Positions 41,464-48,773 of a stretch of 64,000 bases of DNA are shown here, in pieces. Under the pieces are notes generated by a model. The model saw only the letters and a program-made list of their open reading frames with translations, did not search any database and was not told the DNA's origin. Source of the stretch: Haloarcula sp. H-GB4. Its GTDB lineage: Archaea; Halobacteriota; Halobacteria; Halobacteriales; Haloarculaceae. Numbering within the stretch: the first letter of the stretch is position 1; every line of letters starts with the position of its first letter. The translations under genes and the position numbers were made by a program. The stretch spans positions 1,302,001 through 1,366,000 of the forward strand of contig NZ_JAVDDX010000002.1 in assembly GCF_030848575.1 (NCBI RefSeq), given 5' to 3'.

Positions 41464-43071
41464 CTACTCCTCCTGTGTTGCACCCGGAGCGTGGCGCTTG
41501 ATCCGCTCAATGGCGGTCACGGCTTTGTTGCGTTCGGCGTACCCCTCACCGGAGTCCGCGATGATTTCGCCGTTGCGATGGCGGAGTCGCCAGCGCCACT
41601 CCTCGCCCCTGTCCTCGTACACTTCGAACGCTGCGCTCCCGATTTCTAGCAGATCAGCCTCGGCCGCGTACGACTGGACTCGCTCGATGGCATCCATGGC
41701 TTTCGACCGATTTGCGTACCCCTCGCCGCTGTCGGCGACGAGTTCGCTGTTGTCGGCCCGTAGCCGCCAGCGCCACTCCTCGGCAGCGTCCTCGTACACC
41801 TCGAAACGGTCATCGACCGCGGAGTCGGGTGCGAGTTCGCTGACTCGACGGGCCGCCCGCCGGGCGTTCGACCGGGAACTGTACCCCTCGCCGCTGTCGG
41901 CGAGGATGTTGCCGTTGCGGTGGAGCAAGCGCCAGCGGAACTCCCCGGCAGCGTCGGCGTACACCTCGTAAGCGACGGGGTCGACTTTGAGGTAGGCCGC
42001 GCCGGGAACGTATGCGCGGACGCTCTGCAGCGCTCGCCGGACGTTCGACTTCGAGGCGTATCCCTCACCGCTGTCGGCGAGGATATTGCCGTTATCGTGG
42101 CGCAAGCGCCAGCGGAACTCCCCGGCATTGTCCTCGAACAGTTCGAACGCGGCGTCGCTTTCGGGAGCCGGCACGACCGGTACGTCCTCGGCGGTGTCGT
42201 CCTCTGTCGCATCCTCGAAGAAAACGACAGCCCCGCCGGCGGCGTTGGACTGGACGCTACGGAGCCCCTGCATCGCCTTCTGGCGCGAGGAATACCCCTG
42301 TGCGCTGTCGGCGATGACGTTGGAGTTCCGATGGCGGAGCCGCCAGCGGTACTTGCCCGCCGCGTCCTCGTACAGTTCGAACGTCGCCTTGCTGTCCATC
42401 GCAGCCGCGATGGTGGCGTGGGCCGCGGCGAGTTCCGCCTCGGTCGCCTCGGTCACGGTCGCCAGTTCCTCGCGGGCGGCCTCGCTGGTCGCTAACTTCT
42501 CGGCCAGCCTGTTGCGCTCGCGGCTCGCCTGTTCGGCGGCCTGGGACTGTTGTGTCGCTTCCCGGGACGCCTGGTCGGCCTCCTGTGTGGCTTGCTCGGC
42601 CACTTCAGTTGCTTCCTGCGCCGTTTGAACGGCTTTGTCGTACGCTTCTTTTCGGCCAGTCAGCAGCGGGGAGACGACCGCGCCGACAGCCATCAGCCCG
42701 AGGCCGACGATGTATAGCGTCACTGCCGGGTTCCCCTCGGGGCCGGCCCAATTGGAGGGGTAGAACGTGGTGAACCACACCATCGCGACCAGTCCGACCA
42801 CGGCCCCGAGGTATGTGAGTATCAGACCACGTCGTGTCAGCGGCAGCCTGATCGTCGGCCCGGCAAACAGCGAGATGAGCCCAATTGCACCGAGGAGATA
42901 GCCGAACTGCCGGGGCGTGCTCCGCGACGCTGTCAGATAAAACAGGAGGAGGCCGACGATACCGAGTACGATGCCGATGACGAACAGCCAGTAGCCGTAC
43001 ACCTCGTCGTCGGTCGTCGGCTCGCCGATGCGGTTCCGATACACCGAGATTAATTTGTTATTAGTTGCCAC
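41464..43071 (-). CDS. Membrane protein with coiled coil and five YegP (DUF1508) repeats, 535 aa
   Basis: Residues ~26-140 hold four TM helices; ~141-225 is an Ala/Glu/Gln coiled coil (EQATQEADQASREATQQSQA). Five YegP-type repeats follow at about 229-275, 307-353, 366-411, 422-466 and 480-525, each with the pattern FExYEDxxGExRWRLRHxNG, then ADSGEGYxSRxxA. YegP domains are small, of uncertain function, sometimes linked to ligand or stress responses. Repeats 3-5 are closely alike, which points to recent internal duplication. Start is GTG 43071 with a GTAATATAC box A (about 43092-43101). It is divergent from the AAA+ gene; starts are 91 bases apart. Confidence 0.88.
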   Translation of the reverse strand: MATNNKLISVYRNRIGEPTTDDEVYGYWLFVIGIVLGIVGLLLFYLTASRSTPRQFGYLLGAIGLISLFAGPTIRLPLTRRGLILTYLGAVVGLVAMVWFTTFYPSNWAGPEGNPAVTLYIVGLGLMAVGAVVSPLLTGRKEAYDKAVQTAQEATEVAEQATQEADQASREATQQSQAAEQASRERNRLAEKLATSEAAREELATVTEATEAELAAAHATIAAAMDSKATFELYEDAAGKYRWRLRHRNSNVIADSAQGYSSRQKAMQGLRSVQSNAAGGAVVFFEDATEDDTAEDVPVVPAPESDAAFELFEDNAGEFRWRLRHDNGNILADSGEGYASKSNVRRALQSVRAYVPGAAYLKVDPVAYEVYADAAGEFRWRLLHRNGNILADSGEGYSSRSNARRAARRVSELAPDSAVDDRFEVYEDAAEEWRWRLRADNSELVADSGEGYANRSKAMDAIERVQSYAAEADLLEIGSAAFEVYEDRGEEWRWRLRHRNGEIIADSGEGYAERNKAVTAIERIKRHAPGATQEE

Positions 43072-45852: not shown

Positions 45853-46149
45853 ATGGACAGGCGCGGCATCGCGGAGGTCGGTGGGCTGTCGCTGGCTGGC
45901 GGCGTCCTTGCAATCGCCGTCCAGCAGGGTATCGTGGGCAGTATCGACTGGGTGCTGGTGGTGGGACTGGTCACCTGTGTCGGTATCGCGGCCGCGGCGA
46001 ACTATCAGGCCAGAACGAAACATGCGGCGAAGGTCGCCACCGAAGCGCCGGCAGTGACCGAAGACAACTACGAACAGCACGGCCGTCCGACAGCCGGTGA
46101 CGGCGGCTTACCGTCGGATGACGCGCCTTCAGGCGACGACGACCGGTAG
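45853..46149 (+). CDS. Small membrane protein, 98 aa
   Basis: Function unknown. ATG 45853 follows a cttatagg box A at -27. Two TM helices (GGLSLAGGVLAIAVQQGIVG; DWVLVVGLVTCVGIAAAANY) are followed by a soluble tail of charged and Gly/Asp-rich residues. The N-terminus is short. It is convergent with the predicted nuclease gene. Confidence 0.7.
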   Translation: MDRRGIAEVGGLSLAGGVLAIAVQQGIVGSIDWVLVVGLVTCVGIAAAANYQARTKHAAKVATEAPAVTEDNYEQHGRPTAGDGGLPSDDAPSGDDDR

Positions 46150-46168: not shown

Positions 46169-47146
46169 CTATCCGAACCGATCCAGCCCCGACTGACGAC
46201 GCCTGCGTCCGTCTGGGTCCGCCCGCCACGGCGTCCGCTCGGCCCGAAGCGAGTCCCCGTCGACGGCCGGCGGGTCGGCTGCCTTGTACCCGCCGCAGTC
46301 CGGGCCGCACTCGTCGCTCTCGCGGACAGCGCGATCCTTCCACTGACAGTACGGAATCCCGTCACTGTCGGGTGAACAGCGCTCACACGCCGGATAGTCG
46401 AAACTCCGCCATCCCTTCCCATACGCTCGCTCGGCCAGTCGCCGGCGTGCGCGAGCCTTTTCAGAAGCGTTGACTATCCCCACGTCTGTCCGGATCGCCC
46501 GCTCGTCGAGGAGTTCGACGCCGGCGTCGTCGGTCGCCAGTGGTGTCGCCTCCCGACGGACGTCTATCGTTCCGCTGTCGGCGTCGAACCGCCAGACACC
46601 GACTTCCTCGGGAATCCGGTTGAGGTGCGCCCCGGTAACGTAGGAGGCCGTCGCCAGCACGACGCGGTCGGCAAGCGCGAGCGAGACGTCGGTCCGCAAC
46701 TGTGATTCCAGGTCGCCGGGCCGACGCAGGTCCGGCTTGTTCTCGATGGCGACGATGTCGCCGACCCAGTCGGGGTACCGCGTCGTCTGTCGGACGTACG
46801 TCCGGCCGCCGCGACGCTCGCGCTCGAAGAAGCCCCGATCGACCGCCAGTTCGACGGCCCGCTCGGCGCGGTCGGGGTGACAGTCGAAGGCGTCCTTCCA
46901 GTACCGCGCCCGACCCGGGCCAACGTCGCTTTCGATGGCCGCCGTCGGTAGTCGTTCGGGAGTGATGGCCGCCCGCTCGTCGAACTCGGGGCCCGGCTCA
47001 ACGACGACGGTATCGAGGACGCGCCGGCCGTGGATAGCGCCGCCGAGCTGGCGGCTCACCAGTCGACCCTCGCGTTCGAGGTGGGCACACAGTGCCAGTT
47101 CGAAGTCGAACTCCCGCACGACCGGAGGCAGGGCTGGGACGGGCAA
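46169..47146 (-). CDS. Predicted PD-(D/E)XK-type nuclease with cysteine cluster, 325 aa
   Basis: I recall a haloarchaeal family (DUF5787) like this; function is not established. WVGDIVAIENKPDL holds D130 and E135-x-K137, the PD-(D/E)XK arrangement, with E16 in the N-terminal helix (FDFELALCAHLERE) and a following helix SQLRTDVSLALADRVVLATA typical of RecB-like nuclease folds. A cysteine set near the C-terminus, C254, C257, C267, C280, C284, could bind zinc or an Fe-S cluster, as in Cas4, AddB or Dna2. The C-terminal ~40 residues are basic and disordered. The upstream 58-aa membrane gene is 15 bases away and likely co-transcribed. Confidence 0.72.
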   Translation of the reverse strand: MPVPALPPVVREFDFELALCAHLEREGRLVSRQLGGAIHGRRVLDTVVVEPGPEFDERAAITPERLPTAAIESDVGPGRARYWKDAFDCHPDRAERAVELAVDRGFFERERRGGRTYVRQTTRYPDWVGDIVAIENKPDLRRPGDLESQLRTDVSLALADRVVLATASYVTGAHLNRIPEEVGVWRFDADSGTIDVRREATPLATDDAGVELLDERAIRTDVGIVNASEKARARRRLAERAYGKGWRSFDYPACERCSPDSDGIPYCQWKDRAVRESDECGPDCGGYKAADPPAVDGDSLRAERTPWRADPDGRRRRQSGLDRFG

Positions 47147-47161
47147 AAGCCCCGTGCTCGG

Positions 47162-47338
47162 TTACCGGGTGGCGACAAGGAAACAGGTCAGCGCCGCCAG
47201 TGCGAGAACCGGACTCTGCGAGAGTATCGTCAGCAAGCCGAGGTAGACCGTCAGAACGCCGAGGAGGGAACGAACGGTCAGCGGTGGATACGTCGGCCTG
47301 TACAGTTCGGGGTCGGCGTAGGGTGCAGGCTGATACAT
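47162..47338 (-). CDS. Small membrane protein, 58 aa, upstream of the predicted nuclease
   Basis: Read from ATG 47338: it begins MYQPAPYADPELYRPTYPPL and then two adjacent hydrophobic stretches (VRSLLGVLTVYLGLLTILSQ, PVLALAALTCFLVATR), so one or two TM helices. No known motif. The Pro/Tyr-rich N-terminal 20 residues are unusual. Its stop is 15 bases before the nuclease start, so a shared transcript is likely. A longer frame to 47374 is less favoured because the extra residues are not membrane-like. Confidence 0.68.
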   Translation of the reverse strand: MYQPAPYADPELYRPTYPPLTVRSLLGVLTVYLGLLTILSQSPVLALAALTCFLVATR

Positions 47339-47488: not shown

Positions 47489-48376
47489 TCAGTGCTCGCA
47501 AGCCTGTCGCTCGAACTTGGTCGGCTGGAGGTTGCCGTCCAGATAGGCGGTCAGTTCCGCCTCGGCCAGCGGAACCCGGACCGTGAGCCGCCACGGGTCG
47601 GTGTCTTCAACGCTGGTGTACTGGTCGTCGACACACCAGGGGAGCGTCCAGTAGGGTCGACTCGACAGATCGACGCCGTGGTCGTCGTAGAACGCTGCAA
47701 CGCGGGAGTTATCGAGTAGCGTCAGTCCGACAGGCGAACAGAGTTCGTGGCGACACCGTTCGCAGACGAACTCGGCGCGGATCGACACATCGAGACAGCA
47801 GTCGCCATCGCGGGAGATCTCTGTCCCCATCCGACCGGCGCAGTCCGGGCAGACCCCGTCGGCGGCCAGACAGTGGAGGTGTCGCACCCGCTCGGCGAAG
47901 GCCGTCGCGACTTCCGTCGGTGTCCGGTCGACCAGACCGCCCGGCGGGAACGGGTACTCGCCGTGAGCCTTCCCGCAGTCCTCGCAGTCGATAGCGAACT
48001 GCTCGTCGGCGTACTCGGCTAGCAGACCGCCACCACACCGCGTACAGGCCCCGGTCACCGAGAACGGGTCGATGTCGGGCGTCCGAGTGAACGTTCCCGC
48101 CCGCACCGCGCGGATGACCTGCGCCCCGGCGTGCCGGAGGTCGTACCCGTCAGTTCCCTGGCTGACGAACTGATCAGTGAGCTCCTGTAAGTGATAGTTG
48201 AACTGCCCGCTGTCGGCTAGCTCTACGGCGTCGAACAACTCCGAGAAGCGAACTGGTCGGTCGTCTGCGCGCCACAGGGCCTCCAGAATGTCCAGGCGCG
48301 TCTCGCTCGCGATGACCGAAAACGCTGTCGCCGGGTCAATGTCGGCATCCGTTTCGGGGGACTCATCGACTCGCAT
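47489..48376 (-). CDS. Winged-helix transcriptional regulator with zinc ribbons, 295 aa
   Basis: Residues ~15-95 form an ArsR-type winged helix (FSVIASETRLDILEALWRAD, ADSGQFNYHLQELTDQFVSQ, ending GAQVIRAVRAGT). The middle holds paired cysteines, CTRCGGG, CEDCGK, CPDCAGRM and CERCRHELC, giving two zinc-ribbon-like modules. The rest is a beta-rich domain (DDQYTSVEDTDPWRLTVRVP). This fits haloarchaeal winged-helix proteins often annotated as DUF7347/DUF7351 types (recalled). ATG 48376 starts the acidic leader MRVDESPETDADIDPATAFS; upstream Met 23 codons away is less likely. The ligand is unknown. Confidence 0.86.
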   Translation of the reverse strand: MRVDESPETDADIDPATAFSVIASETRLDILEALWRADDRPVRFSELFDAVELADSGQFNYHLQELTDQFVSQGTDGYDLRHAGAQVIRAVRAGTFTRTPDIDPFSVTGACTRCGGGLLAEYADEQFAIDCEDCGKAHGEYPFPPGGLVDRTPTEVATAFAERVRHLHCLAADGVCPDCAGRMGTEISRDGDCCLDVSIRAEFVCERCRHELCSPVGLTLLDNSRVAAFYDDHGVDLSSRPYWTLPWCVDDQYTSVEDTDPWRLTVRVPLAEAELTAYLDGNLQPTKFERQACEH

Positions 48377-48773
48377 CGTGCATGAACCTGTCCCCGCATA
48401 AACAAAAGCGTTCACAGAAACACAGTTACGTAACAGCACCGACATGAACGCGTCACGATTACTTCAGCGTCCCCGTCTAGTCAACGAGCAGGGTTCGACC
48501 GGTTCGACCGGTTCGTCACGGATGGTGGTATGACTGGTCGTTGACTCCGACGTTCTCTTAACGGCGATAGCCGGTGTAATCTCCGACTCGCGCAGTCCGC
48601 GGCTCGTGCGCAGCGATGGGATCGCGTCGCTATATCCGGGCCGATACCGAGCAATCCGGTGATGTTGCCGCTGTCAGCAGGGACAATATCGGCGATTGAA
48701 CCGGGGTCGACGGGCCGCAAACAGTAGGTTTATCAATTGCACGCGGCGAAAATCCACCAAGATTACTCTCGAA
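48377..48773. other. 397-bp intergenic region before aif2g
   Basis: No gene is supported here. It holds the divergent promoters of the winged-helix gene and of aif2g (gtttatcaa at 48728-48736, about 38-46 bases before ATG 48774, so the aif2g transcript may have a short leader). At 48492-48515 the 9-mer GGTTCGACC is repeated 2.7 times in tandem. A minus-strand frame (48481-48720) is open but has no coding character. Confidence 0.6.

Follow-up and report, generated by a model that had tools for sequence, protein, structure and literature searches.

The core of PD-(D/E)XK nucleases is built in the order helix-strand-strand-strand-helix-strand. Cas4, AddB and Dna2 combine this core with a conserved group of cysteines, one of which lies before the core and three after it. 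In other members, such as EndoMS/NucS and Bax1, no winged helix inserted into the core is known. The MmcB protein of Caulobacter has been presented as a PD-(D/E)XK endonuclease that protects against mitomycin C (PMC9578287).

Here we analyse a gene of Haloarcula sp. H-GB4 found in a window of 64,000 nucleotides (the whole stretch of DNA under study), the product of which belongs to family DUF5787 (PF19100). With MmcB-like proteins this product may have in common the predicted core fold and, in a weak alignment, an Asp, E-x-K and IP-x-x-x-G; it differs from them in that none of 81 aligned members matches the MmcB-like profile (PF06319) at E ≤ 1, in its inserted winged helix and in an extra C-terminal cysteine module. 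The predicted core fold is also common to EndoMS/NucS and Bax1 (Z 7.1 and 5.7, values below 8 that perhaps reflect a common arrangement), the alignments being limited to the core (105 and 94 residues). The initial annotation of the locus had likened its cysteines to those of Cas4/AddB-like nucleases. The likeness did not hold, as the four invariant cysteines of the DUF5787 protein all lie after the core with a different spacing (x12, x12, x3); moreover, the profile search that the annotation had proposed returned no Cas4, AddB or Dna2 family from Pfam for the window protein at E ≤ 1.

The gene, its family and the predicted fold

The ORF spans positions 46169-47146 of the minus strand and opens at a TTG codon (47146); its 325 codons provide the residue numbering used throughout, and D130, E135, K137, C254, C257, C267, C280 and C284 stand where the initial annotation had placed them. 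The ORF is more than a chance occurrence, since its product gives a full-length Pfam match to PF19100 (334.8 bits against a cut-off of 25) and since 80 related loci could be collected from named records by means of peptide patterns. Haloarcula species supply the closest of the 80 relatives kept, among them seven with 82-94% identity. In 69 of the 80 loci, the first start codon met on going upstream from the invariant E12 is a GTG located two codons before it. The corresponding GTG of the window gene (47119, residue 10) is probably the true start, which would reduce the gene to 46169..47119 (minus strand) and the protein to 316 amino acids, within a frame that stays open to the TTG. PF19100 is matched by all 81 aligned members. 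At E ≤ 1, NCBIfam offered no family for the window protein, and the PHROGs matches were weak (best E 0.024). The name DUF5787 did not occur in the article texts searched.

An AlphaFold2 model calculated from an 81-row alignment (pLDDT 89.3, pTM 0.86) comprises a helix at residues 12-25, strands at 29-35, 43-51 and 128-136, a second helix at 146-156 and a last strand at 161-166; the predicted elements thus follow the PD-(D/E)XK core order. Foldseek found no match for the model in the PDB at E ≤ 0.001. Alignment with VIA-align, in which rows with Z below 8 can reflect common arrangements, gave SPO1766 (3dnx) as the best match (Z 11.6 over 132 residues), followed by two XisH-type proteins (Z 9.0 and 8.7) and the restriction enzyme PaqCI (Z 8.6). 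Further down the list came a Pyrococcus repair endonuclease, EndoMS, Card1, a CRISPR ancillary nuclease and Bax1. We take SPO1766 and the XisH proteins to have the PD-(D/E)XK fold, and SPO1766 to be a relative of MmcB. The structure prediction, a check suggested by the initial annotation, therefore revealed a nuclease core; with this confident model and the invariance of D45, E135 and K137, the PD-(D/E)XK assignment stands, and the window protein very probably has that fold.

In the model, the strand bearing D45 and the strand bearing E135 and K137 are separated by an insert, residues 55-120 (46787..46984, minus strand). The order of secondary structure elements in the model gives it this place, and its VIA-align matches to winged helices of the MarR, ArsR and Hop2 types (the last through structure entry 2mh2, presumably Hop2) mark it as a predicted winged helix.

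Predicted active-site residues and the cysteine module

Conservation was assessed in an alignment of 82 sequences (the 80 loci, the window gene and a paralog from the same genome) and in a joint alignment of 81 sequences of type 1, the paralog to which the window gene belongs, with 40 of type 2, left from 43 type-2 ORFs once identical sequences were counted a single time. All 82 sequences of the first alignment have D45, E135, K137, E16, E24, C254, C267, C280 and C284; some of the peptide patterns used to collect these loci cover conserved stretches, including the surroundings of two of the cysteines, a bias absent from the type-2 set, and D45, E135, K137 and the four cysteines do not vary in the joint alignment either (121 of 121 sequences). 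The D45 codon lies at 47012..47014 (minus strand), the residue falling at the beginning of the predicted strand 43-51, and the E-x-K half of the motif is encoded by the E135-N136-K137 codons at 46736..46744 (minus strand). An Asp and a (D/E)-x-K are thereby found at the strand positions expected of a PD-(D/E)XK protein. E16, in the first helix (codon 47099..47101, minus strand), is likewise conserved in 81/81 type-1 and 40/40 type-2 sequences.

The initial annotation had put D130 in the core and had named loss of D130, E135 or K137 in orthologs as grounds for abandoning the nuclease reading. Position 130 is Asp in just 3 of 82 sequences and Arg in 54, which eliminates it as a catalytic residue, whereas E135 and K137 never vary. 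The nuclease reading survives this loss because D45 fills the place of D130; judging from the alignments, it is D45 that is the core aspartate. Conceivably, the protein could have retained the nuclease fold without catalysis and act in DNA binding or regulation, a role for which it has a built-in winged helix. The invariance of D45, E135 and K137 across two old paralogs, however, is what a working active site would need, and we regard a non-catalytic function as quite improbable. The DUF5787 protein is instead likely to be an active nuclease, and we are fairly comfortable with that prediction.

A relationship to MmcB was examined next to these residues. In a viral library, the two best matches were MmcB-family proteins. 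PF06319 exceeded its cut-off in 0 of 246 genomes of the phylum and had no match in phage ACP17 at E ≤ 0.001; one of four ACP17 ORFs of 170-173 amino acids, picked by length, scored 15.2 bits, under the cut-off of 22. Scanning viral contigs with the ACP17 protein recovered phage ACP17 only, and phmmer found nothing for it in the PDB at E ≤ 10. A set of eight MmcB-like sequences (seven from phages, one from a plasmid) was assembled from the ACP17 ORF, 6 of 52 phage records (a number that includes two ACP17 records) and 1 of 3 plasmid records; two of the eight are annotated as MmcB and four have sub-cut-off matches to PF06319. Once the insert was cut out, DUF5787 aligned weakly with this set (best E 0.0037, probability 8.9%). 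With A1 alone, hhalign gave E 0.058 and a probability of 0.9%. The weak alignment with the set is in register, pairing D45 with the core Asp of the MmcB-like proteins, E135-x-K137 with E-x-K and a later IP-x-x-x-G with IP-x-x-x-G. It lends weak support to common descent of the two groups, and the pairing of D45 provides a further hint that this residue is the core aspartate.

The cysteine module (C254, C267, C280 and C284; 46295..46387, minus strand) has the pattern C-x12-C-x12-C-x3-C. A cluster of five had been proposed; four of its members stand, but at the position of the fifth, C257, a Cys is found in 47 of 82 sequences, so that a five-cysteine site including it is ruled out. At position 20, part of the first helix, 80/81 type-1 and 40/40 type-2 sequences have a Cys (C20), which might conceivably serve as a fifth ligand. 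When the C-terminal module was modelled alone, the result was modest (pLDDT 77.0, pTM 0.49). No structural match with Z ≥ 2 turned up among the 108 chains of the VIA-align lists, where families absent from the lists could still match; the best Foldseek hit had an E of 2.2, and the best sequence match (E 0.35) was to CDGSH proteins. Within the genome of origin, only the two DUF5787 genes contain the module at E ≤ 1.

Distribution of the family and the small upstream gene

PF19100 matches were found in 289 of the 292 genomes of the class. As we read the search output, only three of the 289 contain fewer than two matches, some third matches possibly being split hits. In a search of 294 genomes of the phylum, 58 gave a match at E ≤ 0.01, and in 52 of these it exceeded the cut-off. 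The matches from outside the class were just six, all below the cut-off and confined to the cysteine region. Two that were opened lie in methanogen ORFs (L094:2273-4267 and L095:1959-4427), presumably methionyl-tRNA synthetase-like, at their zinc-knuckle region. We therefore attribute them to chance or metal-site resemblance and reject, for the 294 genomes searched, a spread of DUF5787 beyond the class; the likeness to zinc knuckles nevertheless hints at a zinc site in DUF5787. The type-2 protein was found in 33 of 40 genomes of the order, the seven others being small or incomplete. In a FastTree tree with midpoint rooting, the 81 type-1 and 40 type-2 sequences separated without any mixing, which indicates that the duplication is old.

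Upstream from the nuclease gene lies a 58-codon ORF (47162..47338, minus strand) for a small hydrophobic protein. As originally described, it ends 15 bases before the nuclease ORF; the gap grows to 42 bases with the likely GTG start. The ORF is present in 5 of the 80 orthologous loci, all of them from close relatives within Haloarcula. In the four comparisons without gaps (a fifth, with gaps, was omitted), synonymous and other codon changes stood at 7:4, 9:3, 18:4 and 13:8. Since synonymous changes prevail, the ORF is probably a real gene.

The initial annotation had seen in the two genes a membrane-plus-nuclease pair such as occurs in defence and DNA-processing systems. Their position on one strand, a few bases apart, would suit a two-gene system for defence or DNA uptake with DUF5787 as its nuclease. 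Linkage in 5 of 80 loci, against a nuclease family present in almost every genome, shows however that the membrane protein is not a conserved partner. In addition, PADLOC had no model matching either protein at E ≤ 1. Phage records contained no DUF5787 match and plasmid records a single one, on a Natronorubrum plasmid, annotated "DUF5787 family protein"; six pattern matches in IMG/VR were not confirmed. We consider such a pair highly improbable. DUF5787 looks like a housekeeping nuclease rather than half of a defence pair.

Genomic neighbourhood and candidate role

In 64 of the 80 loci, the type-1 gene and that for aIF2-gamma are divergent; one further locus has another arrangement and 15 lack aIF2-gamma, partly because contigs end. 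The intervening distance varies from 31 to 5413 bases and is within 450 bases in 16 of the 64, so the two genes are often not neighbours. Adjoining type 1 is a cluster of translation and transcription genes, namely those for aIF2-gamma, a PIN-domain protein, RpoE1 and Spt4, and on the other side the gene is convergent to one for a metallo-beta-lactamase-fold protein in 64 of the 80 loci. Names of type-1 neighbours other than those with Pfam and NCBIfam rows are presumed. Known repair genes are missing from the neighbourhood. Of 9 type-2 loci chosen from the order, 8 have a NUDIX gene upstream from the nuclease gene and in the same orientation; in the genome of origin, one gene lies between the two. 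Thus, types 1 and 2 keep stable places on the chromosome and do not sit in defence or mobile islands. The NUDIX gene (L096:5441-5869) is 81-93% identical in 8 of 9 loci as against 50-67% for the type-2 nuclease (L096:6932-7978). The arrangement suggests that the NUDIX gene and the type-2 nuclease share a pathway.

These neighbours could also be taken to mean that DUF5787 processes RNA, cutting tRNA, rRNA or mRNA with the winged helix bound to structured RNA: the translation and transcription genes beside type 1, the convergent metallo-beta-lactamase-fold gene and the NUDIX gene preceding type 2 would all be in keeping with such a role. However, the structural neighbours of the core are mostly DNA enzymes, even though Card1 and the CRISPR ancillary nuclease are listed among them, and the insert resembles the DNA-binding winged helices of transcription regulators. 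An RNA-processing function is therefore unlikely in our view. DNA is the rather likelier substrate, and, taking the predictions together, we lean somewhat towards an active housekeeping nuclease that acts on DNA. Involvement in repair is a tentative proposal, to which we would give a little less than an even chance. Our best guess for the pathway is DNA repair or processing, perhaps of an MmcB-like kind.

In such an enzyme, D45, E135 and K137, perhaps along with E16, are predicted to form a divalent-metal site. The winged helix would grip duplex DNA beside the active site, and the cysteine module may bind zinc or an Fe-S cluster, contributing to stability or to the choice of substrate. The enzyme might then nick or trim a DNA structure arising in repair or replication, as proposed for MmcB. 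On a bolder and distinctly doubtful view, haloarchaea would own a private, universal DNA-processing pathway having no equivalent outside the class. Its basis would be two DUF5787 nucleases of ancient origin, both with a winged helix within the catalytic core and with a metal cluster, maybe redox-sensing, held by the cysteines; the two would differ in their substrates or work together.

That almost every haloarchaeon keeps a pair of such predicted nucleases points to a gap in what genetics has covered in this well-studied group of archaea. Class-wide and with an unusual insert, the DUF5787 family of predicted nucleases is worth testing; now that the insert is named and D45 rather than D130 is placed in the likely active site, a simple mutant and biochemical test becomes possible in Haloferax volcanii. 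The aIF2-gamma gene of this species is HVO_1901 (PMC3828320). Since one gene separates aIF2-gamma from the nuclease gene in H. prahovense, the H. volcanii ortholog of the nuclease may be HVO_1903, a name that did not appear in the article texts searched. HVO_1902 is probably the gene in between; a study of quorum sensing reported a strong drop in its abundance (PMC12240190).

A 2020 review states that HerA and NurA are absent from H. volcanii (PMC7776575), which would leave room for DUF5787 as the missing end-resection nuclease in place of NurA. The idea lost its basis and was discarded, because a NurA profile matched 24 of 26 genomes searched as well as the control Haloferax volcanii. Outside the window, the genome of origin contains a NurA-domain ORF (G000:C1:367251-368168, minus strand; 92.2 bits against a cut-off of 21).

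Three other ORFs of the window were recorded. Adjoining the nuclease gene, 47489-48445 (minus strand) encodes a helix-turn-helix protein with DUF7347 and DUF7351, a relative of which is found in 29 of the 80 loci. Convergent to the nuclease gene, 45853-46149 (plus strand) encodes a hydrophobic protein of 98 amino acids, present in 14 of the 80 loci and with sub-cut-off Pfam matches only. Finally, an ORF of 535 amino acids at 41464-43071 (minus strand) has a hydrophobic N-terminal part and several similar repeats of the approximate form F-E-V/L-Y/F-E-D-x-A-G-E-x-R-W-R-L, which we take to resemble DUF1508/YegP repeats.
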